From Glutamicibacter sp. PS (GTDB taxonomy: Bacteria; Actinomycetota; Actinomycetes; Actinomycetales; Micrococcaceae), in contig JANCMB010000001.1 in the NCBI GenBank assembly GCA_031317595.1, forward strand, positions 2,040,971 through 2,104,970: a DNA stretch of 64,000 nt, written 5' to 3'. Under the pieces are notes generated by a model that saw nothing but the letters and a program-made list of their open reading frames with translations, was not told where the DNA came from and did not search any database. Of the stretch, positions 3,504-64,000 are shown piece by piece (position 1 is the stretch's first letter; each line of letters starts with the position of its first letter). The position numbers and the translations under genes were made by a program.

Positions 3504-4934
3504 CTATTTGCGGGCGCGAACCACGGCGAGCACCTGTTCCTCTGCGTCCGGTCCGGCCTTAATGCCTCCGGGGACCTTGAAGAAGAACACCGCGCCCAGC
3601 AGCCACCAGACGCCGAAGATCAGCCAGGGCTCCCAGGTCAGGGCGGCCGGCATCCCGGGCATGTAGAGGGTGAACAAGGCCGCGGTGAGCAGCACCGAGG
3701 TCCAGCCGATCAGTTCGCCGCCGATCCCGGCTCCGCCCACACGCAAGGGACGGACCATCTGCGGGTCGCGCTTGCGCAATACCAAGAAAGTCACCGATAC
3801 CAGCAGGTAGGCGATGATGATGCTTGGTGCGCCGGAGTCCACGAGCCAACCCAGCATCTGCACCCCGAAGAACGGGGCCAGCATTGAGATACCACCGATA
3901 AACATCAGGGCATTGTGCGGCGTCTTGTACTTCGGGTGCAGCGTAGCGAACCATGCCGGCAGCATGCCGCTGCGAGCCAGCGAGTAGACAAGGCGCGAGG
4001 CACCCAGCAGCAGCGAGTTCCACGAGGTCAAGATGCCGGCCACACCACCGGCGATCAGCACCTTGGCCATCAGGGCGGAGCCGAACAGTGAGCCGAAGGC
4101 GTCGGCGGTGGCAATGTCGGCCCCGGCCAGTTCGCCGGCCGGCATGGCCGAGGAGGTGGTCAGCACGACCATCACGTACCAGGCGGTGGCCAGCACCACT
4201 GAAAGCACCACGAGCTTACCGATCTGTCGGGCCGGGATGTTGACTTCCTCAGCCGACTGCGGGATCACGTCGAAACCGATGAACAAGAACGGCACGGCCA
4301 CCAGCACGGCGAAGAAACCGTTGATTCCGTTGTTGAACAGCGGCTGCATATGCTGCACCTCGCCGCCAATGAAGGACCCGAAGATCAGCAGCAGGCCAAT
4401 GACCAGCAGGAAGATCACCACGAAGGTCTGCACCACACCGGCCTGTTTAACACCACGGATATTGATCCAGGTGATCAGGATGGCGGCGAGCACGCCGACG
4501 AGGGCCCAGGTGAGGTTTACCTCGAAACCTGCCACGGTCCATAGCGGGATCTTGCTCATGCCCGGGAAAATGTACTCCACGGTGCGCGGGAGCGCGACCG
4601 CTTCGAAGGCCACAATGGTGACATAGCCACCGGTAATCGCCCATGAACCAATGAATGAGGGTCGCGGGCCCAAGGCACGCAAAATAAAGTTGTGCTCGCC
4701 GCCTGCCTTGGGCATGGCGGCGGTTAGTTCGGCATAGGTCAAGCCGACAACGGCCATAATGCCACCGCCGACCACCATGGCCAGTACGGCGCCGAGGGTG
4801 CCGGCGTTTTCCAGCCAGCCACCGGTCAACACCACCCAGCCGAAGCCGATCATGGCGCCAAAGCCCAGCGCCAATGCGTCGAAATTACCTAGCGTCTTTG
4901 CTAGGCCCGACGATTCTGCATGTGTCGTATTCAC
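3504..4934 (-). CDS. APC superfamily amino-acid/amine permease
   Basis: A 476-residue inner-membrane transporter with about twelve hydrophobic segments. The N-terminal GFGAMIGFGWVVLTGGWLENAG matches the unwound first helix (GxxIGxG) of APC transporters, and TYAELTAAMPKAGGEHNFI matches helix 2-3 of the same superfamily. FDVIPQSAEEVNIP resembles the FexxxxxAEE segment of helix 6. The substrate is not evident, though basic or neutral amino acids or amines are typical. I chose the GTG start at 4934: it has AAAGGA seven bases upstream, whereas an ATG further upstream (4976) adds 14 polar residues with no support. It is isolated from metabolic genes that would suggest a substrate. Confidence 0.85.
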   Translation of the reverse strand: MNTTHAESSGLAKTLGNFDALALGFGAMIGFGWVVLTGGWLENAGTLGAVLAMVVGGGIMAVVGLTYAELTAAMPKAGGEHNFILRALGPRPSFIGSWAITGGYVTIVAFEAVALPRTVEYIFPGMSKIPLWTVAGFEVNLTWALVGVLAAILITWINIRGVKQAGVVQTFVVIFLLVIGLLLIFGSFIGGEVQHMQPLFNNGINGFFAVLVAVPFLFIGFDVIPQSAEEVNIPARQIGKLVVLSVVLATAWYVMVVLTTSSAMPAGELAGADIATADAFGSLFGSALMAKVLIAGGVAGILTSWNSLLLGASRLVYSLARSGMLPAWFATLHPKYKTPHNALMFIGGISMLAPFFGVQMLGWLVDSGAPSIIIAYLLVSVTFLVLRKRDPQMVRPLRVGGAGIGGELIGWTSVLLTAALFTLYMPGMPAALTWEPWLIFGVWWLLGAVFFFKVPGGIKAGPDAEEQVLAVVRARK

Positions 4935-5073
4935 CGCAGTATCCTTTCCATCCCCTGATGCGAGTCCGGTCGGCAAGGCTCAACGTCACCGACTCGTGGG
5001 ATAGACATTACTGCCATAAATTCGAGGAAAGGATATTGCGCCAGAAACATTGCGCCGAATGGTCCCGGGGCGG

Positions 5074-5781
5074 TTATCGACTGATGACAAACCTCAGGTC
5101 GGGTCGGGAAGCCTCGGGCGTTTGGTCGTAAAGATAGCCGATCCCGTCAAAACACAGGTTACCGATTTCGACGTAGTCTTCGGGATGTTCCATAGTGCAG
5201 ATCCAGCTATTGAGTTGCCCCAGTACACGCATGTCCGACGCGATCTCCGCCGGTACGCCGTTGCCCGTCCAGTAGGGCGCCCCACCGAATTTCGTGGACT
5301 GGTTGGTGTCGAAGTCATGAGGTACGGCCAGTTCCTCAGGCAGGGCGAGGAAAGCCTCGGCATCATAGAAGTCCGCTTCGCGAGTCGCCGGGATTGGATC
5401 CTCGAATACCCTCCAACTCGCCACCGTATACTCTCCGAACTCGGGGTCGGGGTAGTCCACCGGAGGTTGTTGCGTATACCCCGTACTCAGGTCGTTGTGT
5501 TTAAGCAGGAATACTCGGTTACACCCCGACTGAGGGTCCCAGAAATCGCAGATCGTCTCGTTCTCGCATTTGAAGATGTATACCGATTCTTCTGCTCCGA
5601 GCCGTGGCAGGTGCTCGCCGCCGGGAAATTGCGCGAGGAAGCGTTGTGCCTGCCCGCACGTGGCGCAGCGCGGCCAGCGTTCGCGCGGGAATCCCCAGGG
5701 TGCTCCGCCAATTTTCGCCAAACTTGGCCCGGCGGCCGGTGACCGGGCCTCGGTCAATTCTGGAAAGTAGGTACGCACCAT
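5074..5781 (-). CDS. DUF1963 (YwqG-like) family protein
   Basis: A 235-residue cytosolic protein rich in aromatic and acidic residues. It resembles the YwqG/DUF1963 family: KIGGAPWGFPRERWPRC near the N-terminus, then Cys-rich CATCGQAQRFLAQF, FKCEN and FWDPQSGCNRVFLL in the middle, and KFGGAPYWTG near residue 168. The repeated GGxPxW pattern is typical of the two-fold beta repeat of this family, whose function is unknown. It ends with DLRFVISR. The neighbouring acetyltransferase lies about 30 bases upstream on the same strand, so the two may be cotranscribed. Confidence 0.75.
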   Translation of the reverse strand: MVRTYFPELTEARSPAAGPSLAKIGGAPWGFPRERWPRCATCGQAQRFLAQFPGGEHLPRLGAEESVYIFKCENETICDFWDPQSGCNRVFLLKHNDLSTGYTQQPPVDYPDPEFGEYTVASWRVFEDPIPATREADFYDAEAFLALPEELAVPHDFDTNQSTKFGGAPYWTGNGVPAEIASDMRVLGQLNSWICTMEHPEDYVEIGNLCFDGIGYLYDQTPEASRPDLRFVISR

Positions 5782-5812
5782 CGGCTCCTCGGGTCGCTAC
5801 TGAGTGATGACT

Positions 5813-6352
5813 TTACCTGGCATCCGCTGCGGGGCCGAGGGTGGTGAAGTTCGACGGAGACCATGCCTCGGGTCGCGGCACCTGAAGTCGATACAACCAC
5901 AACCGCGTGTCCGGATCGTCTGGGCGAAGCGCGAAAATCTGTGAGAGTACCGCGATGCGTTCAAAGCCGAGGCTCGCGTGCAGACGTTGCGAGGCGATGT
6001 TGCGCTCGTTGGTGAAGTAGTAGGCCTGCCGTGCGTGCTCCGCGATCCTTTGCAGACGAAACTCCGTCAGACAGCGCCCGATCCCCCGGTGCCGGTATTG
6101 CTCGGCAACGTAGATGCCGCCGAGGTAGTAGCCGGCCGGAGCATCGCCTTCGGGTAGCGGATGATGGTGGATCTTGGCGATCCCGATCACTTGCCCGGTC
6201 GGCGGAAGGTAGGCGACGCTGAGGCAACGTTCCTCCGCTTCGGGCAGCAACGGCGACCAGCTGTGGATGCCTAGGGTCTGACAGAGTGCGTCGATGGCCG
6301 CGGCGTCGCCCTGTTCGGCAATCCGCACCAGAGGTGAGTGCGGGGAGCTCAT
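5813..6352 (-). CDS. GNAT family N-acetyltransferase
   Basis: A 179-residue protein with the GNAT acetyl-CoA site: YYLGGIYVAEQYRHRGIGRCLTEF contains the beta4-alpha3 motif (R/Q-x-x-G-x-G/A), and NIASQRLHASLGFERI is the usual C-terminal motif of the fold. The acceptor substrate cannot be told. It starts with ATG at 6352 and is followed about 30 bases later by the DUF1963 gene. The PAP2-like gene upstream ends 35 bases before this start. Confidence 0.85.
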   Translation of the reverse strand: MSSPHSPLVRIAEQGDAAAIDALCQTLGIHSWSPLLPEAEERCLSVAYLPPTGQVIGIAKIHHHPLPEGDAPAGYYLGGIYVAEQYRHRGIGRCLTEFRLQRIAEHARQAYYFTNERNIASQRLHASLGFERIAVLSQIFALRPDDPDTRLWLYRLQVPRPEAWSPSNFTTLGPAADAR

Positions 6353-6386
6353 CGGTCTCCTTCGTTCGAGGGGAAGCCAACCGTCC

Positions 6387-6989
6387 TCATGAGAGGAGCA
6401 ACTGACTCGTCCATTGAGTTAGGTAACCGACCACCACGCCAACCAGCACACCGCCGAAGACCTGTGAGGCGGTGTGTTCGGAGCAGCGCACCCGCGCCCA
6501 GGAGAGCAGGGACACGAAGAGCACGATCGCAGCGGTTGGTGCCACATCGGCAAAGGCGTGGAGCACCACATAGGTCCCCACGGCCAGGTGGACCGAGACT
6601 TTCCACCACAGGTTGATAAGGCTCACGAGCAGCAGGCCAACCGCGAAGGCCCCGATTTCGACGTATAGGGCCGTTGCGGTACCGATCACCGTGAGCAGGG
6701 CCAGCCCGCCGACCATGGACAGCGCCGTCACCGCGTAAATCCAGTGTCGTTGGTGACGTTGTGAAACGTGGATATTGCTGACCTTGCCCCGCAGCCGGGC
6801 CACCGCGAGAATCGACCAGGGCAAGAGCATGGTAAATACGGTCCCAAGAACCGCCGATAGCCATGAAACCTCGGGGTGTCGCACGGGGGTGCTCAGGAGC
6901 AGGGCGCTACCGAGCACCACGGGCGTCAGGATATGCGAGACAAGTTGAGCGGCGGTAACGGCCTTGGGTGGTGCGGCGACGGTAGTCAT
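6387..6989 (-). CDS. PAP2-like phosphatase family membrane protein
   Basis: A roughly 200-residue integral membrane protein with five or six hydrophobic helices. The C-terminal part has the PAP2-type pattern KVSVHLAVGTYVV, then SWARVRCSEHTASQVFGGVL: a Lys and His pair in the first motif and ARV-x-x-x-EHTxxQVxxG in the last. This resembles lipid phosphatases, but the catalytic SGH motif is not obvious, so activity is uncertain. ATG at 6989 (MTTVAAPPKAV) is the likely start; the open frame extends about 50 codons further with no coding character. Its promoter region is divergent from the gene at 7112. Confidence 0.75.
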   Translation of the reverse strand: MTTVAAPPKAVTAAQLVSHILTPVVLGSALLLSTPVRHPEVSWLSAVLGTVFTMLLPWSILAVARLRGKVSNIHVSQRHQRHWIYAVTALSMVGGLALLTVIGTATALYVEIGAFAVGLLLVSLINLWWKVSVHLAVGTYVVLHAFADVAPTAAIVLFVSLLSWARVRCSEHTASQVFGGVLVGVVVGYLTQWTSQLLLS

Positions 6990-7111
6990 GAGTCCTCTAG
7001 AGCTAGTGCATCGGTCCTGCCTCAACACTACCGAACGGTAACTCTCCCCAGGTCCATCGCGGGACTGATCCTCGGCTAGCGGCTGGCTTATGCGGCGGCT
7101 AGGCTGGCCCC

Positions 7112-7690
7112 ATGCGGACCTGGCATGTACCATCCCCAATGCGCGGGGACGCGGTGTTCGACCAGTTGGCCTCCTATGTGCACGGCGGTGACTACCTCTT
7201 ACATGGTTCGCGCACCACGGGGTTGTGTGTCCTTGAGCCGCGCGCTCCCATTGACTTCAGTGTCGATGACTTCTCGAAGGCCACGGCGGTCTACGCGACC
7301 GAGGATCCCACATGGGCCATGGGATATGCGCTGCGCACGGCGGAGGCCAGCCCCTTTCTTAACGCCTGTTTCTACCCCGCTGCCCGTGCCGGCCAGTGGT
7401 CGGCACGCCGGATCTTTCTCTCCTACGCTCGCACCGCCTCGAACCAGTGGCCATTGAGTCCCGGGGTGGTCTACGTGCTTCCCGCCGCCGAGTTCCGCCG
7501 CATGCCCAGCTACACGGACCGGCAGCTGGGGCATATCACCGAATGCCAGTGGATCGCTACCGAACCGGTGCCCGTGGTCGCCGAGATCCCCGTGACGCCG
7601 GAGAACTTACCGCTGCGCCCGCGGCGGCATGACCCCGATCTGGTCCGTCGCCGGGCGGCCGACGAACCCGACGGTTTTCCGTGGCTGTAA
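7112..7690 (+). CDS. Unrecognised protein with a PARP/ADP-ribosyltransferase-like HGS motif
   Basis: A 192-residue soluble protein. Residues near 29-36 read LLHGSRTTG, very close to the NAD-binding His segment of PARP-type ADP-ribosyltransferases (WHGSRTT). About 35 residues later comes VYATEDPTWAMGYAL, which could supply the second-position Tyr, and a later TECQWIATEPV could supply the third-position Glu. This H-Y-E reading is inference from short motifs; I do not recognise the family by name. There is no signal peptide. A TAGGCT box ends seven bases before the ATG, so the transcript may be leaderless. A strong terminator follows. Confidence 0.7.
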   Translation: MRTWHVPSPMRGDAVFDQLASYVHGGDYLLHGSRTTGLCVLEPRAPIDFSVDDFSKATAVYATEDPTWAMGYALRTAEASPFLNACFYPAARAGQWSARRIFLSYARTASNQWPLSPGVVYVLPAAEFRRMPSYTDRQLGHITECQWIATEPVPVVAEIPVTPENLPLRPRRHDPDLVRRRAADEPDGFPWL

Positions 7691-7708
7691 ATCGCGCTGC
7701 GCGTTAAG

Positions 7709-7751
7709 CGCCGTTGGGCGCCACCTCGTTGTGAGGTGACGCCCAACGGCG
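7709..7751. terminator. Bidirectional terminator between the 7112 gene and icd
   Basis: Twelve-base perfect arms (CGCCGTTGGGCG and its complement) flank an inner ACCTC/GAGGT stem. It lies between two convergent stop codons, so it can serve both genes. Confidence 0.85.
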
Positions 7752-7765
7752 GTAATAACCGGTGA

Positions 7766-10159
<2,394 letters not shown>

Positions 10160-10185
10160 TCACATTTAAGTTAATGGACCATAAC

Positions 10186-10821
10186 TCAGTCAGGTAGCTG
10201 CGCGCTAGCAAGGGCGGCGAGCCGACTCGAGACGCGGTCAAAGACCTGCCGCGGTTCAAAATCGCGGCCTGCGGCAACCTCGCGGGCCACGCTAATCCAC
10301 GCCACACGCCACCCCGATGCCAACAGTTCGGCAACGAGCATGCCATCCACGGCATCGACGCCGTACTGCTGGGTCAACGCCGTTCCCAACCGAGCCATCA
10401 GCTCCATTTCGCGCTGTGCGATGGCACGCAACAGCCGCGGTTCCTCGAGAATAATCCGCGACACTCGCGTGAACTCATGAGGACGCACGGCAACGTCAAA
10501 TTGCTCGCGACTGACCCGAAGTAGCGCGGCATAGATCTGTGCCGGAGTTCCGGCAGGGATAGGAAATTCTAGAAGCATGTCGAGCAAGGTGTCATGCCCG
10601 ATCAAGGTTGCGCTTTCCTTGGAGTCAAAGTAGCGAAAGAAGGTCCGCTCGGAAATTCCGGCGCGTGCGGCGATCTGCGCCACCGTGACGCGCTCGAGCC
10701 CCTGCGCTTCCACAAGGTCCAGGGTCGCCAGATGCACCTGTCGGGCCGTTTCCGCTTTGCGTTGCGCCCGGACGCCGGGCCGAGGCTGATCACTCGCATT
10801 CACCCTTCCATTGTGACGCAC
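10186..10821 (-). CDS. TetR/AcrR family transcriptional repressor
   Basis: A 211-residue regulator. The N-terminal helix-turn-helix is clear: TVAQIAARAGISERTFFRYF (about residues 45-64) followed by DSKESATL, the standard TetR recognition helix. The C-terminal ligand-binding domain is alpha-helical and not assignable to an inducer. It is divergent from the MFS exporter at 10911, and the 90-base gap holds two palindromes, so it very likely represses that exporter and itself. The start is GTG at 10821; an in-frame GTG six codons later is an alternative. Confidence 0.9.
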   Translation of the reverse strand: MRHNGRVNASDQPRPGVRAQRKAETARQVHLATLDLVEAQGLERVTVAQIAARAGISERTFFRYFDSKESATLIGHDTLLDMLLEFPIPAGTPAQIYAALLRVSREQFDVAVRPHEFTRVSRIILEEPRLLRAIAQREMELMARLGTALTQQYGVDAVDGMLVAELLASGWRVAWISVAREVAAGRDFEPRQVFDRVSSRLAALASAQLPD

Positions 10822-10828
10822 GATTGTT

Positions 10829-10849
10829 TTCTGTCACACTCTGACAGAA
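10829..10849. promoter_or_regulatory. TetR operator candidate, site 1
   Basis: A 21-base imperfect palindrome with outer arms TTCTGTCA and TGACAGAA, in the gap between the divergent TetR and MFS genes. Its reverse complement matches site 2 at all positions except the central one. Confidence 0.75.
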
Positions 10850-10860
10850 TATAGGCGATT

Positions 10861-10881
10861 TTCTGTCAGACTGTGACAGAA
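10861..10881. promoter_or_regulatory. TetR operator candidate, site 2
   Basis: A second 21-base palindrome with arms TTCTGTCA and TGACAGAA, centred 32 bases (about three helical turns) from site 1 and close to the MFS start. Two dimers could bind on the same DNA face. Confidence 0.75.
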
Positions 10882-10910
10882 CTTGTTTTGCACCGCGAGA
10901 AAGAGGCTCA

Positions 10911-12341
10911 GTGAGCACAACCCACGCCGCACCCCCGGCACCACCGGCGACAACGAAGCTGACCGGCATTATCGGTTCGCTCGCCCTAGCGGCCTTCCTG
11001 ATGATTTTGAATGAAACCGTGCTGTCGGTCGCACTGCCGGCAATCATGGAAGATCTTCAGGTCTCCGCTGCGGCCGGACAGTGGCTGACCACCGGATTCC
11101 TACTGACCATGTCGGTACTGATACCACTCACCGGCTACCTGATTCAGCGTTTCCGCACCCGCACGCTCTTTGCTTTCGCACTGCTTAGCTTCATCATCGG
11201 CACGCTCATCGCCTTCCTGGCCCCAAGTTTCGCGGTGCTTCTGATCGCCCGAATCATTCAGGCCGTTGGCACCGCGATCATCATGCCGCTACTGATGACC
11301 ACAACCTTGCAACTGGTTCCGCGCGAACGCCGCGGCACCGTGATGGGGCTGAACTCCATCGTGATTTCCGTGGGTCCGGCGGTCGGTCCGACCGTGTCGG
11401 GGGCCATCGTCAACACCTTTAGCTGGAACGCGATCTTCCTGATCATGCTGCCGTTGGCCACCGTGATCCTCGTGGCGGGCCTCATCTTCATCCGGGTGCC
11501 GGACGCCACCCGACGCACCCCGGTGGATGTCGCCTCGGTCATTCTCAGCGCACTGGCCTTTGGCCTGTTGGTTTATGGCATCTCGAGCCTGGAGCATGCG
11601 GTCGATAACCTCACCATGACCATCGCCAGCTTCCTCATCGGACTCGTGGCGCTCGGGTTGTTCATCCGCCGTCAGCTACGCCTGACGCGAGAGGGCCGCG
11701 AACTATTGAACCTGTCGCCCTTCACCAATCGCAGCTTCACGCTCTCGGTGCTGCTGATCATGATCGGCATGGGCACGCTGTTGGGCACCCTGGTGATGCT
11801 GCCGATCATTCTGGAGTCCGGTGCGGGACATAGCACCTTGGCCATTGGCCTCATGTTGCTGCCCGGCGGGTTAGCCCAGGCCATTAGCGCCCCCATCTTC
11901 GGTCGGGTCTTCGACCGCCACGGACCGCGCCCGGTGTTGATCCCCGGGGCCATCCTTCTGGCCGCGGGCCAATGGCTGTATCTGACCGTAAACGCGGAAA
12001 CGCCCCTATGGACCTTCGGCGCGATTCACGTGGTGTTCTCCATCGGAATGGCGTTGTTGATGACCGGTTTGATGTCCTCGGCACTGTCGACCGTTCCGCC
12101 ACAGCACTATGGCCACGGATCGGCGATTTTCACCACCGCCCAGCAGCTCGGCGGCGCCATCGGCACCACCATGTTCGTCACGATCTTCTCCATGCTCTCC
12201 GCACGCCAGCTCACCGCAGGAGAGCAGGCGACGGTAGCACTCTTCGACGGGGCGCATTATGCCTTCATCGTCGGTGCCATTATCACCACGGCGGCCATTG
12301 CGATCGCCCCGCTGATTACCCTCAAGCGGCAGAGCCGATAA
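10911..12341 (+). CDS. DHA2-family (EmrB/QacA-like) MFS drug exporter
   Basis: A 476-residue proton antiporter of the major facilitator superfamily, DHA2 group, predicted to export drugs or toxic metabolites. The features are MILNETVLSVALPAIMEDL in helix 1 (motif D1), WLTTGFLLTMSVLIPLTGYL, FRTRTLFAFALLSFIIGTL, and VGPAVGPTVSGAIVNTFSWN (motif C, the antiporter signature). About fourteen helices are visible. GTG at 10911 lies about 30 bases after operator site 2. Divergence from the TetR gene and the paired operators suggest inducible expression. The substrate is unknown. Confidence 0.92.
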   Translation: MSTTHAAPPAPPATTKLTGIIGSLALAAFLMILNETVLSVALPAIMEDLQVSAAAGQWLTTGFLLTMSVLIPLTGYLIQRFRTRTLFAFALLSFIIGTLIAFLAPSFAVLLIARIIQAVGTAIIMPLLMTTTLQLVPRERRGTVMGLNSIVISVGPAVGPTVSGAIVNTFSWNAIFLIMLPLATVILVAGLIFIRVPDATRRTPVDVASVILSALAFGLLVYGISSLEHAVDNLTMTIASFLIGLVALGLFIRRQLRLTREGRELLNLSPFTNRSFTLSVLLIMIGMGTLLGTLVMLPIILESGAGHSTLAIGLMLLPGGLAQAISAPIFGRVFDRHGPRPVLIPGAILLAAGQWLYLTVNAETPLWTFGAIHVVFSIGMALLMTGLMSSALSTVPPQHYGHGSAIFTTAQQLGGAIGTTMFVTIFSMLSARQLTAGEQATVALFDGAHYAFIVGAIITTAAIAIAPLITLKRQSR

Positions 12342-56873: not shown

Positions 56874-58142
56874 CTATTTCCGTGCTGGGTCGATAACCTT
56901 GTCGACATCAAAGAAATCGTCCAGCACGGGCCGGTCGCCCTTGCGCTGCTTGGCAAACTGCAATCCGTCGATGTTGATCCGCATCTGCCGCTGATACTTC
57001 TCACCCTGCTGCATCCATGAGGTGGTGGTGCCGTCGACTCCATAGAAAAAGTCGAACCCATCTTTCGCCAGTGCACGATAGCGTGCCGAATGATAGGTGC
57101 CCACGCCGGCCAGTTCCGACCCGAAGGGGAAAATGAACTGATCGGTGTCTCCGATCAGGGGGCGAACTTCCTTGCGCCAAAGCTTGCGGTCCCGGTTAAA
57201 ACGGTCCATGTTTACGGTTCCGGTGGCGATGTGGCCCCAGGAGTGCGACGCGAACACCCAACCGGTGTCCTTCATTGCTTCAGCGATCTTCTGCGCAGTC
57301 TGCTGATCTTTCTTCAGCGTCTTGCTGTCCTTGTACTGACTGGCCGAGGTGCGATAGCCGAAAATGCCGTTGTAGCCGGTCAGTGCCACGATGCCACGGG
57401 CTCCGCGGTAGGAAAAGTCTGGATGCTCGGCGACGAAGTCGTCAATCAACGTCGTGACGTCGTATGCGCCTACATGTTCCTCGCCTTTTCCGTCCACGTA
57501 GAGGTTACGGACCTTGCCGTTTTTATCGATGATGAGCTTACTGGCGAATCCGTCGTCCTCCATGTACTCGTAATAGCTCAGATCATCGACCGATATGACC
57601 AGTGGGGTTTTGCCTTTGGGAAGTTTGATCTTCCGGTAGGCCATCTTTCCCTTCTCGTTGAGTCCAGCGAAATCGTGCGGGTTCACGAGTACGTAGTCAC
57701 GCTTGTAGAGCTCGGCTAATATCGCCTCGAACTCTTTCTGCGTCACCATGTAGTCCTTATATCCTTGCGCGTCTTCGTCGCCGTCGAAGGCACGCTTAGG
57801 ATCAACCACGAGCGAGTGGAAGAACAGATGCGAAATTTTCTGCGGCGACTTCCAGGTCACGAGATCTTCTTTTTCCTCTTTCAGGCCCCTGACCATCGAG
57901 GTGATCTGCTCGTTCGAGTCGCTCTCGGCCAGCTTGATGGCGGCGTCTAGATCGTAACCATCGGCAAGACGGTTGATCTCGTCCTTCACCTGGCTAACCC
58001 GGGCAGCCTCTTTTTCTTGAGCGGTTGGCCCGGAGGATGAAGGAGAGGAAGATTCGGTCGGGTCGCTCGTCGGCTGTGCGCTACAGCCACTGAGCACTAG
58101 AGCGCCAATGAGTAATGCCGATACTAGTTGCGAGCTCCGCAT
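56874..58142 (-). CDS. Polysaccharide deacetylase-like lipoprotein
   Basis: A 422-residue lipoprotein. The signal peptide ends in a lipobox, VLSGCS, followed by a Ser/Thr/Pro-rich linker. The NodB-like domain has PLVISVDDLSYYEYMEDDGF with the metal Asp pair and GWVFASHSWGHIATG with the two His in HxxxH form, then GDTDQFIFPFG. It may remove acetyl groups from a wall polysaccharide. It is monocistronic, and its promoter region is divergent from jetA. Confidence 0.87.
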   Translation of the reverse strand: MRSSQLVSALLIGALVLSGCSAQPTSDPTESSSPSSSGPTAQEKEAARVSQVKDEINRLADGYDLDAAIKLAESDSNEQITSMVRGLKEEKEDLVTWKSPQKISHLFFHSLVVDPKRAFDGDEDAQGYKDYMVTQKEFEAILAELYKRDYVLVNPHDFAGLNEKGKMAYRKIKLPKGKTPLVISVDDLSYYEYMEDDGFASKLIIDKNGKVRNLYVDGKGEEHVGAYDVTTLIDDFVAEHPDFSYRGARGIVALTGYNGIFGYRTSASQYKDSKTLKKDQQTAQKIAEAMKDTGWVFASHSWGHIATGTVNMDRFNRDRKLWRKEVRPLIGDTDQFIFPFGSELAGVGTYHSARYRALAKDGFDFFYGVDGTTTSWMQQGEKYQRQMRINIDGLQFAKQRKGDRPVLDDFFDVDKVIDPARK

Positions 58143-58435: not shown

Positions 58436-59893
58436 ATGCAGCCCTCGCAGCATGCGAAGCGCTTGTGGCAAGAAGCCGAATCGTTCAGGAATTCCGCGGC
58501 CTACCGGTTGTTGACTACGCAACCGTGGGCCCTGGGTTTTATGCAGGCCGAGTTCTCCGCGAACAAGCCGCAGGTGGCTTTGGAAATATTCCATGCCTCG
58601 CTGGATTCATTTCTGAAGGTCGTGCGTGAGAGTGGCGAACAGCTGGCCACTAGCTATACGGCGGCGGATTACGCCGAGCTCTGGGTACGCCAGGGCATCT
58701 TGGCGCGCCCGCTGCGGGACGGGCACTTCGTCTATGAACCCAGTGCACACACGTTGCGCGTGCTGCGCTTCTTGACCGACTTTTCCACCGAGGATTCCCA
58801 TCTGAACTCCTCACGACTCAATACCTTGCTCTCGTCGCTGGAGTCTTTGGCGCACGACACCGACCCGGATCCCGAAGCGCGCATCCGAGCCTTAGAAGCC
58901 CAAATTGCGACCCGCCAAGCACAGATCGATGCCCTCCGCCGGGGCGATGGCACCGAAGTACTGTCCCGTTCCAGCGCGCTCTCGGCCACGCGTTCGGTGC
59001 TGGACCTCGCGTCGAGCTTGCCTGCCGACTTTAAACGAATGCGTGACGGCGTTCTGCAAATGTTGCATTCGTTGCGTGAGGATATTGTTGATGCCTCCAC
59101 CGCTAAGGGTGTCGCCATTGGTCAGGTATTGGCCGCCGACAAGCAGCTACGCTCCACCGCAGAGGGCGAAACTTTCCAAGGGTTCACCGAATTCCTCAAC
59201 TCTCCCGAAGCGCAGCGGCGCTTCCGCGAGGCCGTGGCCGAGGTTCTCGAACGCGATTTCGTCGACGACTTGCAGGCGCCCGAACGCCATATTCTGACCA
59301 ACCTGCTACGTGAACTGCGCCGTCAGGCTGCCGAGGTGCATGAGTCTTACGGCAAGCTTTCCGAATCGCTGCACGCGTTCATCCAATCCGAGGACTACCA
59401 TGAGGCGCAGTTACTACGCCACGCGGTACGCGAGGCCGAAACAGCCGTAGCTCGGTCCACCGCGCTCAAGCCACGTAGTGCCCTCACTCCCCTACGCTTA
59501 TTCGCCCCTCAGTTCGTGACATTATCCGGGCTGGGAATCTACGATCCCTCCGAGCATGTGGCGCCACCACCGTTGGCTGCGGCTCCCGAGTTCAGTGCCG
59601 AAGATATCGTGCGCACCCCAAGCACCCCACAGGCCAATATGCCAGCGCTTCGCCAGCACATCACCGACCGGCTGACCGACCGGGGTAGTCAAGTCGGGCT
59701 CGATGAGGTGTTCCACTCTTTGCCGCCGAGTGATCGCCATGTGAACAGCATCAGAGCGCTGATCGAGATCGGCCGAGTCAACTCCGAGCCGCTCGATACA
59801 CACCACATGTTGACCCTCCAGTTCACCCAGATCGATGGCAGCATCCGCACCGCCGAAGTCCCCGCCCTGAGTTTCACGAAGGAGCCGCTATGA
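58436..59893 (+). CDS. jetA: Wadjet/MksF kleisin subunit JetA (DUF3375)
   Basis: A 485-residue cytosolic protein. SAAYRLLTTQPWALGFMQAE, YAELWVRQGILARPLRDGHF and RVLRFLTDFSTEDSHLNSSR match the DUF3375 N-terminal winged-helix part, followed by a coiled-coil (DPEARIRALEAQIATRQAQI). DLQAPERHILTNLLRELRRQ and the C-terminal winged helix LDEVFHSLPPSDRHVNSIRA complete it. JetA is the kleisin that bridges the JetC dimer. It starts an operon with jetB (four-base ATGA overlap) and jetC. Wadjet systems resist plasmid transformation by cutting circular DNA; this needs JetD. Confidence 0.94.
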   Translation: MQPSQHAKRLWQEAESFRNSAAYRLLTTQPWALGFMQAEFSANKPQVALEIFHASLDSFLKVVRESGEQLATSYTAADYAELWVRQGILARPLRDGHFVYEPSAHTLRVLRFLTDFSTEDSHLNSSRLNTLLSSLESLAHDTDPDPEARIRALEAQIATRQAQIDALRRGDGTEVLSRSSALSATRSVLDLASSLPADFKRMRDGVLQMLHSLREDIVDASTAKGVAIGQVLAADKQLRSTAEGETFQGFTEFLNSPEAQRRFREAVAEVLERDFVDDLQAPERHILTNLLRELRRQAAEVHESYGKLSESLHAFIQSEDYHEAQLLRHAVREAETAVARSTALKPRSALTPLRLFAPQFVTLSGLGIYDPSEHVAPPPLAAAPEFSAEDIVRTPSTPQANMPALRQHITDRLTDRGSQVGLDEVFHSLPPSDRHVNSIRALIEIGRVNSEPLDTHHMLTLQFTQIDGSIRTAEVPALSFTKEPL

Positions 59894-60555
59894 ACCAGCC
59901 GATCACCGAACCCCTCTTCGAAGGCGACCGCGGCCGGTTCGATCTGGCACTACGCCAGCTACTGGTGCGACTTCTGCGTGGCCCTTACCTCGACGGTGCC
60001 ACCGATCCGACGGGCTGGCAGCTTCTGCTTGATCAACGCGAAAGCATTGAGGCCTATGTCAGCGAGATTTTTCTGCTCTTGACGATCGATGCCGAACGTA
60101 AGATCGCGATGCTCACTCCAGCTGAGATCGATCACGCCCATACCGCACCGATCGCCCCGCGGCGCGCCCTGCGCCGCGACGAAACTCTGCTGGCTTTACG
60201 TTTACGACTATTGCTCGAGCAGCATGCCGGTACCGGCAGCGACGCCGCCATATCGCGAAGTGCAATGCACGAGATCCTCGCCGAGCATCGACCGGCCGGG
60301 GACCGCGACGACAAGCGCTTCGCCGAGTCCTGCGATGCGGCAATTGGCCGCCTGCTGACCTTGCGCCTACTGACAGGCACGGAAATTCCGGACGAGTACC
60401 GGATTTCTCCGGCGCTCGCCATGGCATTGCCGTTAGCCAGCATTTCCGACATTCCCGCCTATATCGCGGCAATCGACGCCAATGAAGCCACGCTGGATGT
60501 GAGCTCAGACGGTGAGTCTGCCGCGCAAGAAACCATCGAATTGGTGCAGGAGTAA
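59890..60555 (+). CDS. jetB: Wadjet/MksE subunit JetB (DUF4194)
   Basis: A 221-residue protein. RFDLALRQLLVRLLRGPYLD, then RESIEAYVSEIFLLLTIDAE, and ETLLALRLRLLLEQHAGTGS correspond to DUF4194, a tandem winged-helix (KITE) protein that joins JetA and JetC. It overlaps jetA by four bases and precedes jetC by three bases. GGAG lies just before its end and serves jetC. Confidence 0.93.
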   Translation: MNQPITEPLFEGDRGRFDLALRQLLVRLLRGPYLDGATDPTGWQLLLDQRESIEAYVSEIFLLLTIDAERKIAMLTPAEIDHAHTAPIAPRRALRRDETLLALRLRLLLEQHAGTGSDAAISRSAMHEILAEHRPAGDRDDKRFAESCDAAIGRLLTLRLLTGTEIPDEYRISPALAMALPLASISDIPAYIAAIDANEATLDVSSDGESAAQETIELVQE

Positions 60556-60558
60556 CCC

Positions 60559-63500
60559 ATGAGCATTGAGATGACCCTGCCCATCGGCGGCGGACTGAAC
60601 CCGGGCCAGCATCGCCTCAGCCGTATCCAAATCGTCAACTGGGGAACCTTCCATGGTTTACATTCCCTGGAGATCGACCGGCGTGGAACACTGATCACGG
60701 GTCACCCCGGCGTAGGCAAGTCCACGCTCTTCGATGCCATGGGGCATGTGTTCTTCGCCAGCCCACGGTTGAATGAATCGGCGAATGAGGCTGTCTCGCG
60801 TGAGGACCGCCGTACCACGTTCTCCTACATGCGCGGACGAAAGTTCAAGACCGCTGCCGGGACCGTCTATCAGCGTCCGGGGGCGACATGGAGCGCCATT
60901 ATCTTGAGTTATGAAGACGGCCTCGGCAACGTGGTGAGCGCCGGCGCCGTCTTTGACCTGCCCGATGCAGGTCTCGAGTCTCAGGTCTCGAAGCACTATT
61001 TGCTGTGTGAAGGTCCGCTGCAGATCTCCGACTTGGAAGATCACGGGCCGCGCCGTTTCACGATGTCCTCGTTGGCCAAGGCGCTGGCTCCAGCCGAGGC
61101 CTTTGATACGCATAAGGCGTTCATTGAGAAGGTACGCCGCCGGCTTGGTGTCGAGTCCGATAAGGCCTTCGCGCTGCTACGTACCCTGCAGAACGGCAAG
61201 GGCTTAGCCAAGGGCGTTAACCTGTTCTTCCGTCATGAGGTGCTCGCCGAACCGGCCACGTTGAAGGCCGCCGCCGCCGCGGTCGAAGACTTTGCCCACT
61301 TGCGTGGAATTTACCGGCAGCTGGACACCGCTCGGGCACAACGCGATGTGTTGGCCAAGGTCCCGGCCCAGGACGCCACGTACCGCGCCCTTGGTGCCAA
61401 GATCGAGGCCACCAGCACACTCCTTGAGTCAGACATCGCCCAGCTCGAAGCCCAGGTGCGCCGTCACGTATTGCGCAATGACCTACAGCGCCATACGCAG
61501 AGCTTGGAATCCTTGCGGGCCAACGAAGCAGAATTCGTGGCCCGTAAAGAGGAGCTCGACTCCCGGCTGCAAACCCTGCACGCGGCCAGTAATGACTCTG
61601 GTACCGCCTCACTGATGCTTCTGGAGCGCGAGGCCGACGCGGCGCGCAAAACCTTGGCGGAAAAGCAGCAGGTCATCCACGAACTTCAGGAGCAGGCTAG
61701 CGAGGCCGGGCTGAAGTTCGAGTTCAGCGGACCCGGCCTTGATGAGCTTCGTGCGAATGCGGCGCGCGGACTTCAGCAGTTGGAATCGATCGCCGCCGAT
61801 GTGCAAACGGTGCAATACGAGGCCATGGCCGCATTGGTTAATCTGCGCAAGCGTGCCGATACGCTCAACGAACAGATCGTCTCGTACCAGCGCCGAGGTA
61901 GCAACATTGACGACCGATCGGTGGCCGCGCGACGCGCCATCGCCTCGGCCTGCTCCCTAGCTGAATCGGATCTGCCCTTTGCCGGTGAACTTATGGATGT
62001 GGCCGGCACGCAGAACGACTGGCGCCTAGCCGCCGAGAAGGCATTGGGAACGCTGGCGCGCACCATTCTGGTGCCCGGCGAATACCTGTCCAAGGTCACC
62101 CACGCCATTGACCAGCTCTCCGGTCTGGGACGCGTGCGCTGGGCGGATATGTCCACCACACCTCGTGAAGCCACCGAAGGACCTAACGATCTGGTGAGCA
62201 AGCTGGAATTCGCTTCCACGCCGGCGGGGCGGTGGCTTCGCGCCAAGATCGCGGCCGACTACCCACTGGTGTGCGTGGATTCTGATGCGCAGATGCACCT
62301 ACACGCCAAGGCAATCACCCCAGCCGGCACGATCAAGTCGGGGAAGGGCAGCTACGAACGCGATACCCGAACTTTGCCAGCCAGCGAGTACCTGCTCGGT
62401 TTCACCAACGAATCCAAGATATCTGAGCTTCAGGCCAAGGCGCGCAAGCTCAAAGACGAAATTGCCCTGGCCGAACAGACCGCCACCGAGCGTACCGCGG
62501 CCAAGGACAAGATGGCGGCCAAGACGCGGCTGCTCACCGCCCTGATGCAGGATGACCGTAGCTTCGCGCAACTGGACTCTACGGCCGCTCTGACCGAACT
62601 CCGGGCCAAGGAGCAGCAGCTCGGCGACGCAATGACGTTAACCGGTGATACGCACCGGGTGCGCGCCGATATCGAAGAAGCCACCGCGCAAAGCGAGTCG
62701 GTAGTCGGAGAGCTGGCGCTGACTCGGGCCCGCATTGAAGATACCAGTGTCCAGATCGCCCGCGCCGAAAAGGTGCTTGCCAGCACCGAGGGCGAGGATG
62801 CCGAGGACTGGATCGGACAGGTACCGACCGAGTTGGCACAGCAGCCGACGATCCATCAGTTGCTGGCACAGCTGTCCGAAGGACAGTGCCCGAGCAATGA
62901 TTCGATCACCGAAATTTTCGCCGATCTCAAGTTGAGTCTCGGCACCGAGCTGAATCAGCTGCGTAGCGAACGTCAGGAAGTCGCCGGTGAACTGAGCGAA
63001 ACCTTCAAACGCTTCGCCCGGGAATTCGGTCCGGCTCAGGCACAAACGCACGGTACGTCTCCCCAAGCCGCAGAGCACTACGCCAAGCTACATGCGCAAA
63101 TCGTTGCAGACGGACTGCCGCACCATGAGGAACAGTTCCGCGAATACTTTGCCAACCGTTCCTACGAGCGTTTCAGCGACCTGCTGCAATTGCTCGATGA
63201 GGAACGCCGGATGATTTCCGAGCGCATTAAGCCACTGAATCAGATTCTGGCCGATGTGCCCTTCGAACATGGATCGGTGCTGCGCCTCGAGGTCAGCAAC
63301 GCGATTCCTGCCGAAGCCGGGACGTTCCGAAACGAACTGAAGCAGGCATTGGCTCAGGCCTATACGACCAAGGAAGAAAGCACCCTTGCTAGTTCATATC
63401 AGGCGCTCGAGGCGCTCGTGCAAGCCTTGAGCGACCCGCAGCGCAGCGCGTGGCGTTCTACCGTGCTCGACGTGCGCCAGCATGTGGTGATTAGCTGCAA

Positions 63501-63888
63501 CGAACACAAAACCAACGGCGAGATCGAAACCGGGCTGGAGCCCGGAACGCTCTCCGGTGGCGAGGGGCAGCGCTTCACCTCATTTATCATGGGTGCGGCC
63601 CTGGCCTACCAGCTGGGCTTTGCGGCCGCAGGCTTTACCTCTTACGGCACGGTGATGATCGATGAAGCCTTCATTCAGGCCAATGCCGATTATGCGGCGG
63701 CGGGCATTCGCGCCTTGCAGGAGTTCGGTTTCCATCTGGTGTTGGCCGCGCCCGAAGACAAGATCGACTTGAGCCGGCACCTGGGATCGATTACCGACAT
63801 CATCAAACATCCCGGGTCGAATATTTCGGGATTCGTGACTACGGGGCGTTCGCCGGCGGTGGCTACCACAATCAGGCTGGGTGACTGA
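60559..63888 (+). CDS. jetC: Wadjet/MksB SMC-like ATPase JetC
   Basis: An 1109-residue SMC-type ATPase. Walker A is GHPGVGKSTLFDAMGHVFFA about residue 48, a long coiled-coil follows with a hinge-like region near residue 560, and the C-terminal head has TLSGGEGQRFTSFIMGAALA (signature, about residue 998) and YGTVMIDEAFIQANADYAAA (Walker B, about residue 1032). JetC extrudes DNA loops together with JetA and JetB. It is the last gene visible; two hairpins follow within 112 bases and jetD does not start there. So it could be a JetABC/MksFEB-only system or have jetD elsewhere. Confidence 0.95.
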   Translation: MSIEMTLPIGGGLNPGQHRLSRIQIVNWGTFHGLHSLEIDRRGTLITGHPGVGKSTLFDAMGHVFFASPRLNESANEAVSREDRRTTFSYMRGRKFKTAAGTVYQRPGATWSAIILSYEDGLGNVVSAGAVFDLPDAGLESQVSKHYLLCEGPLQISDLEDHGPRRFTMSSLAKALAPAEAFDTHKAFIEKVRRRLGVESDKAFALLRTLQNGKGLAKGVNLFFRHEVLAEPATLKAAAAAVEDFAHLRGIYRQLDTARAQRDVLAKVPAQDATYRALGAKIEATSTLLESDIAQLEAQVRRHVLRNDLQRHTQSLESLRANEAEFVARKEELDSRLQTLHAASNDSGTASLMLLEREADAARKTLAEKQQVIHELQEQASEAGLKFEFSGPGLDELRANAARGLQQLESIAADVQTVQYEAMAALVNLRKRADTLNEQIVSYQRRGSNIDDRSVAARRAIASACSLAESDLPFAGELMDVAGTQNDWRLAAEKALGTLARTILVPGEYLSKVTHAIDQLSGLGRVRWADMSTTPREATEGPNDLVSKLEFASTPAGRWLRAKIAADYPLVCVDSDAQMHLHAKAITPAGTIKSGKGSYERDTRTLPASEYLLGFTNESKISELQAKARKLKDEIALAEQTATERTAAKDKMAAKTRLLTALMQDDRSFAQLDSTAALTELRAKEQQLGDAMTLTGDTHRVRADIEEATAQSESVVGELALTRARIEDTSVQIARAEKVLASTEGEDAEDWIGQVPTELAQQPTIHQLLAQLSEGQCPSNDSITEIFADLKLSLGTELNQLRSERQEVAGELSETFKRFAREFGPAQAQTHGTSPQAAEHYAKLHAQIVADGLPHHEEQFREYFANRSYERFSDLLQLLDEERRMISERIKPLNQILADVPFEHGSVLRLEVSNAIPAEAGTFRNELKQALAQAYTTKEESTLASSYQALEALVQALSDPQRSAWRSTVLDVRQHVVISCNEHKTNGEIETGLEPGTLSGGEGQRFTSFIMGAALAYQLGFAAAGFTSYGTVMIDEAFIQANADYAAAGIRALQEFGFHLVLAAPEDKIDLSRHLGSITDIIKHPGSNISGFVTTGRSPAVATTIRLGD

Positions 63889-63911
63889 AACTCTGGGTTC
63901 GCCTGCTACTG

Positions 63912-63967
63912 CGGGCCAGTTTCTCCCTGAGGTCCGGGCATAGCCCGGCCATATACGAACTGGCCCG
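63912..63967 (+). terminator. Nested hairpin after jetC
   Basis: Outer stem CGGGCCAGTT/AACTGGCCCG, ten bases perfect, encloses CCGGGC-ATA-GCCCGG. It starts 24 bases after the jetC stop codon. Confidence 0.6.
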
Positions 63968-63978
63968 GAGCCCCAAGG

Positions 63979-64000
63979 GTGCTTTCTCCCCAGAAAGCAC
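63979..64000 (+). terminator. Second hairpin after jetC, at the window edge
   Basis: Perfect nine-base arms GTGCTTTCT and AGAAAGCAC with a CCCC loop. The window ends at its last base, so a T-run after it cannot be checked. Confidence 0.6.

Follow-up and report, generated by a model that had tools for sequence, protein, structure and literature searches.

The 64,000-nucleotide stretch of Glutamicibacter sp. PS DNA analyzed here (G000:C1:2040971-2104970, to be referred to as the window) has an operon of three genes at its end, in the order jetA-jetB-jetC. The operon probably encodes a complete, ATPase-competent Wadjet type I JetABC motor that lacks JetD and serves as a second condensin in addition to Smc. 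In Wadjet, JetABC is the sensor and is armed with JetD (PMC10586767; this and the other articles cited are represented by excerpts of their text). The first-pass annotation of the window had proposed that, if jetD is missing, the operon may be a condensin of the Mks type without plasmid cleavage, or may use another nuclease. The former proposal fits best, as the operon is intact in all 18 genus genomes searched, is under purifying selection, and is accompanied by a canonical Smc. The genome has a size of 3.44 Mb, in 14 contigs, and is 99.75% complete.

The three genes are intact on the plus strand and are tightly packed, in agreement with the first reading of the sequence (Table 1). The jetA and jetB genes overlap by 4 bases, and jetC follows jetB after 3 bases. 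All three subunits are assigned to Wadjet type I by the PADLOC profiles, with an intact gene for each of JetA1, JetB1 and JetC1. The nearest solved relatives of JetA, as found with the clade profile, are the JetA chains of 8q72, 8as8, 9qxt and 8dk1, and those of JetC are the JetC chains of 8dk2 and 8as8. JetB belongs to DUF4194 and not to the MksE family PF21980, for which its 22 bits fall short of the cut-off (27). As a trio of kleisin, KITE and structural maintenance of chromosomes (SMC) subunits with intact ATPase motifs and no nuclease, the operon is MksBEF-like in its composition.

The jetD gene is missing from the operon. The next gene after jetC is a permease in an ABC-transporter operon that is convergent with jetABC and lies 282 bases beyond jetC. 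No jetD starts in the roughly 300 bases past position 64000, where one would have spoken against the first-pass annotation; the next gene is this minus-strand permease. Within the reach of three profiles, JetD is missing from the rest of the genome as well. Across the whole genome, PF09983 (JetD_C) has no match at E ≤ 10, PF11795 (DUF3322) has a sole match, at E = 0.19, and our own profile of 19 order-wide JetDs has no match at E ≤ 0.01. The PF11795 match was rejected as a JetD, as it sits in a 144-aa regulator of the MarR family (PF01047, 57.8 bits). As positive controls, both Pfam models match in Corynebacterium glutamicum and in the JetDs of three other loci. The 19-sequence profile matches 65 of 245 genomes of the family Micrococcaceae (E ≤ 0.01), three of these matches being weak and new. 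The JetD component of Wadjet type I (DUF3322 and JetD_C) is found neither in the operon nor elsewhere in the genome, and a JetD hidden downstream or at another site is rejected by the gene reading and the three profiles.

The absence of JetD is not a local loss. The comparison with neighbor genomes, which the first-pass annotation had suggested, finds the same JetD-less three-gene operon in 18 of the 18 Glutamicibacter genomes searched with JetA. All of their jetA, jetB and jetC genes are open (54 of 54), and the proteins have 69-79% identity to those of the window. The gene order, with the nuclease/helicase and the deacetylase-like gene before jetABC and the permease after it, is conserved across the genus.

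JetD_C is present in five of the 18 genomes, at places other than the jetABC operon. In four of them JetD is part of a second operon, roughly 21-30% identical to the jetABC operon. In the fifth (G007) only JetD fragments remain. These fragments are located at L054 (G007:C2:62790-63189), a 20-kb locus in which jetA, jetB and jetC were not found, and which may be an accessory Wadjet in the process of being lost. The complete Wadjet of G001 (L050) has its jetC split into two frames (7920-9200 and 9238-11091), and may be a broken accessory Wadjet or an assembly frameshift. On contig C5 of G017 (127-148 kb; L049, L053), a complete, divergent Wadjet is located about 14 kb from the JetD-less operon, and the two are a natural pair of an armed and a disarmed system.

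The complex appears to be in use, because its ATPase motifs are invariant and the median ratio of nonsynonymous to synonymous substitution rates (dN/dS) is about 0.1. Lys54, the segment S999-G-G-E1002, and the pair D1035-E1036 are invariant in 21 aligned JetCs from 11 genera. We take Lys54 to be the P-loop lysine and S999-G-G-E1002 to be the signature motif, names that are consistent with the Pfam domains. Within the genus, the median dN/dS (Nei-Gojobori) is 0.08 for jetA (range 0.02-0.29), 0.14 for jetB (0.03-0.52) and 0.11 for jetC (0.02-0.40), over 46, 63 and 64 pairs, respectively, of 153 each. Only pairs with dS of 0.05-1.5 were kept, because the others were either saturated or too similar. 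The jetABC genes are under purifying selection. The canonical Smc of the same genome is encoded at G000:C1:1179857-1183402 (881 bits).

The JetD-less operon is widespread in the family. With the genus JetA profile, 120 of the 245 Micrococcaceae genomes have a match at E ≤ 1e-10, including 115 with a strong JetA (at least 350 bits) and five with weak matches only. By comparison of coordinates, none of the 115 has JetD_C within 10 kb of the strong JetA. No JetD_C match is found anywhere in 77 of them, and the three genomes that were added only by the second JetD profile lie outside the 115. The other 38 have some JetD match elsewhere, which is only a fragment in some cases and is on the same contig in 13. 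The JetD nearest to a strong JetA is 19 kb away (in G017) and belongs to a second operon. Among the 14 weak JetAs (at most 124 bits), 12 have JetD within 12 kb, at a distance of about 5.7-6.2 kb, and the other two (in G150 and G121) have no JetD on the same contig.

The JetD-less loci of the family form one group in the trees. A FastTree tree was calculated for JetA and JetC, with 75 rows (four of the 18 genus loci, 27 loci from elsewhere in Micrococcaceae, four complete Wadjets of the genus, and 40 order or family loci); rows L093, L050 and L099-L102 are less than half filled. The 31 JetD-less Micrococcaceae rows are located on one side of a single branch, with a support of 100. The complete Wadjets of Micrococcaceae fall elsewhere, and some of them share genomes with the JetD-less loci. 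An IQ-TREE tree of 40 JetC rows agrees, as its eight rows of this lineage group together. The FastTree tree was flagged for long branches that meet; the IQ-TREE tree drew no flag for long end branches. Both trees are unrooted, with a midpoint root for drawing only. The lineage is deeply diverged, with JetA identities to that of the window down to 37%. In the jet tree, a record named Kocuria polaris MS50-16 (L095) is placed beside G037 and Zhihengliuella salsuginis, with an end branch of 0.017, and its gene order is largely common to both. This record may be misnamed.

Outside Micrococcaceae, JetD-less loci are also common. An order-wide survey of 327 genomes, some of them Micrococcaceae, used a JetA profile trained on the Micrococcaceae lineage (E ≤ 1e-10). 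It finds 103 JetA loci outside the family, 44 with JetD_C within 12 kb and 59 without, some of them near contig ends. Of the 59, 53 are in genomes without any JetD_C match. Among the order loci retrieved, JetD was not found in 19 of the first 20, nor in L121 and L137 of the second 20. Because loci L099-L102 break off before or within jetC, the absence of JetD there is judged from the genome search, in which JetD_C has no match in G256 and G273 and adjoins a second operon in G431 and G343. Most of the JetD-less loci beyond Micrococcaceae come from two families (f11 and f8). A single clade of JetD-less rows is rejected by the approximately unbiased (AU) test (p-AU 1.7e-87, LG+G4, quick tree). 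The JetD label needs at least seven changes on either tree, and well-supported branches force five and six. It is an evenly balanced judgment that Wadjet type I motors of Actinomycetales have lost JetD on repeated occasions and, so disarmed, have been retained by individual lineages as second condensins.

The genomic settings in f11 and in one subgroup of f8 are those of housekeeping genes, not of compact defense cassettes. In all six f11 loci (L099-L104), other genes spanning 2.6-8.6 kb lie between jetA and jetB, and the kleisin gene has moved out of the operon. The stretch in L102, the one f11 locus scanned, contains an alkyltransferase-like gene and a sulfur transporter. In f8, a subgroup of six loci (L105, L106, L107, L137, L121 and L109) has the JetD-less jetABC downstream of one conserved gene in every case, which is leuS-like in the three loci scanned with Pfam. 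Other neighbors in the scanned f8 loci are a carbohydrate phosphorylase in L105 and, in L109, a HerA-like helicase together with a DegV protein; no nuclease common to the loci was seen in these neighborhoods. Two other f8 loci, L108 and L126, have close JetABCs (end branches of 0.15 and 0.18-0.19), one without and the other with JetD, and this difference is a recent loss or gain of JetD. In Micrococcaceae, locus L068 (G215) has a sugar-acid-type cluster between jetA and jetB (4242-9411), with a dihydroxy-acid/phosphogluconate dehydratase, dehydrogenases and a GntR regulator, and all three of its jet genes are intact. The genes between jetA and jetB in L102 and L068 are metabolic, transport, regulatory or alkyltransferase-like.

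In the mechanism that we propose, JetD would have been lost in an ancestor, a direction that the unrooted trees do not prove. Inheritance would have been mainly vertical, as the synteny and the single clade suggest. JetABC would load on chromosomal DNA and extrude loops, as is thought for MukBEF and the MksBEF of Pseudomonas. A stalled complex could not cut without JetD, and its effect on a plasmid would not go beyond compaction or sequestration of the DNA.

Several points weigh against a second condensin. The lineage is missing from 130 of the 245 family genomes, and it is therefore not needed throughout the family. Some pairs within the genus reach the upper dN/dS values given above (0.29 for jetA, 0.52 for jetB and 0.40 for jetC). 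The PADLOC profiles already class these proteins as Wadjet. In sequence, a JetABC with intact motifs would look the same if it had an unlinked nuclease or if it only silenced plasmids. Moreover, an N-terminal segment of JetB, LFxGDTG or a close form of it, is kept both with and without JetD, even where the genome has no JetD match at all. It is missing from the JetD-less loci of f11 and from some JetD-bearing loci (L052, L129, L130 and L132). An excerpt of a review places the IFDR motif, which contacts JetD, at the N-terminus of JetB. If LFxGDTG corresponds to IFDR, the JetD contact would persist; the alignment to the solved JetB did not place the IFDR motif, and the correspondence could not be shown.

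The alternative that survives best, although unlikely, is defense against plasmids or phages without cleavage, in which JetABC would extrude and compact small circles and thereby block their replication or segregation. In its favor, the motor of this operon is intact, and JetABC is described as the sensor of Wadjet (PMC10586767). On the other hand, the operon occupies a constant core position across the genus, unlike the complete Wadjets, whose JetD is found in five of 18 genomes and at other places.

Next in rank, and improbable, is a complex that still acts against plasmids and cuts them through another nuclease, unlinked or neighboring. The natural candidate is the RecB-like nuclease/helicase of the TM0106 family, encoded upstream of jetABC in 18 of 18 genus loci and, for some of the loci in four other genera (g18, g23, g24 and g30), also close to jetA. 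However, TM0106 has no match (E ≤ 1e-20) in 26 of the 115 operon-bearing genomes (16 of 16 in g32, four of four in g20 and six of 14 in g7), and it is present in 40 genomes that do not have this JetA lineage. It is therefore not an obligatory partner, and was rejected as such. No other gene, including those downstream of jetC, is a conserved neighbor of jetABC across the genera of Micrococcaceae examined (27 loci outside the genus set), and in the six f8 loci the gene that the operon follows is the conserved one described above. The first-pass suggestion of another nuclease is retained as a lower-rated alternative, without TM0106 in an obligatory role.

It is very improbable that a second, complete Wadjet provides JetD in trans. 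Such a source could exist in the 38 genomes with some JetD match elsewhere, fragments included, and not in the 77 without a match, among them that of the window. For the window's genome this alternative is refuted, unless its JetD is too divergent for the three profiles. Least probable of all is decay, in which the operon would be what remains of a Wadjet after the loss of jetD. This is refuted for practical purposes: fragmentary JetD remnants do occur in the family (G007, G077 and G216), but the 54 open genes, the low median dN/dS, and the ATPase motifs kept down to 37% JetA identity are against decay.

The proposed second condensin can be compared with four known systems. It shares with Wadjet type I (JetABCD) the JetA1, JetB1 and JetC1 profiles, the gene order and the homologs 8dk2 and 8as8. 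It differs from it in that JetD is absent from the locus and was not found elsewhere in the genome, and in being present and syntenic throughout the genus, whereas Wadjet type I is accessory. The MksBEF of Pseudomonas aeruginosa is likewise a MukBEF-like three-subunit complex described without a nuclease and coexisting with Smc, and it is reported to act on the chromosome (PMC10586767, PMC7485682). The operon of the window is of another lineage, that of the type I JetABC of Actinomycetota, and its PF21980 score is below the cut-off. The MksBEFG of C. glutamicum is an actinobacterial JetABC-type complex beside a canonical Smc. In contrast to the operon studied here, it carries the nuclease MksG/JetD, and it is reported to affect only non-chromosomal DNA and not to act on the chromosome (PMC7083940). 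MksBEF is reported to act on the chromosome and the nuclease-bearing MksBEFG not to, and by that logic the Micrococcaceae lineage would be a second condensin. The MukBEF of Escherichia coli also has kleisin, KITE and SMC subunits and no nuclease. It has apparently replaced Smc-ScpAB in its hosts (PMC10586767), whereas the genome of the window keeps Smc.

The first-pass annotation had also described two inverted repeats, and no open start, in the 112 bases after jetC. Both repeats are found there, and the plus strand has no open reading frame of 30 aa or longer; there is one minus-strand frame, of 42 aa. The predicted fold of the 112 bases has an energy of -53.6 kcal/mol. A stem scan, with a loop limit of 3-10 bases and 60 shuffles per locus, finds stems of at least 14 bp within 120 bases of the jetC stop in 15 of the 17 other genus loci, with a maximum of 11 bp in the shuffles. 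The other two loci (L040 and L041) score 5 and 6 bp under this loop limit, and their folds show long stems. For the window itself, the best stem in 300 bases has 8 bp and does not exceed its shuffles (maximum 12 bp), and its 24-nt repeat is not above the shuffles in the strict scan. No stem with a following T run was found by the scan in the window's genome. The hairpins are most likely terminators, since they sit between convergent genes and have long stems. They do not substitute for jetD.

Table 1. Features of the jetABC region, in window coordinates (positions above 64000 are window-equivalent).
Feature	Position	Strand	Evidence or remark
TM0106-family RecB-like nuclease with superfamily 1 (SF1) helicase, 1153 aa	53402-56863	+	TIGR03491 175 bits; neighbor, not demonstrated part
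Gene with sub-cut-off polysaccharide deacetylase match	56874-58142	-	16.6 bits, cut-off 23.1; neighbor, position conserved in genus
jetA (kleisin, DUF3375), 485 aa	58436-59893	+	PADLOC JetA1 710 bits; PF11855 350 bits
jetB (KITE subunit, DUF4194, MukE-like), 221 aa	59890-60555	+	PADLOC JetB1 262 bits; PF13835 112 bits
jetC (SMC ATPase, MukB-like), 1109 aa	60559-63888	+	PADLOC JetC1 1054 bits; P-loop and SbcC_Walker_B domains
Inverted repeat, 13-nt arms 36 nt apart	63909-63921/63958-63970		Part of terminator-like 3' region
Inverted repeat, 9-nt arms, 4-nt loop	63979-63987/63992-64000		Repeat scan
24-nt repeat, 88% complementary with mismatches	64094-64145		Beyond window; strongest repeat here
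Permease, 828 aa	stop codon at 64170	-	Followed by its ABC ATPase

No discussion of a JetD-less type I lineage was found in the open-license literature searched, as far as its excerpts extend. For Paenarthrobacter lasiusi, a Wadjet with JetA, JetB and JetC only is listed beside a complete one, in a table and without comment in the text available (PMC11719660). Within this literature, the JetD-less pattern has already been printed in a table but not interpreted. The action of JetABC on chromosomes, and the descent of MukBEF and MksBEF from defense systems, are named as open questions (PMC10586767). With the lineage described here, soil bacteria offer a JetABC that naturally has no nuclease, in some cases with a complete Wadjet in the same cell, and both questions therefore become directly testable.

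Wadjet is reported in 42% of Actinobacteria genomes (PMC10482375). Such counts may include operons that are unable to cut, depending on the subunits that a finder demands. If the repeated disarming is true, part of this high count would not be defense. The passage from defense to a housekeeping condensin of the MukBEF type would have happened several times in one order, and it could be studied with close pairs of armed and disarmed systems. The retention of the three motor genes without the gene for the cutting enzyme suggests that a defense machine has turned into an ordinary chromosome-handling machine in this bacterium and many of its relatives.
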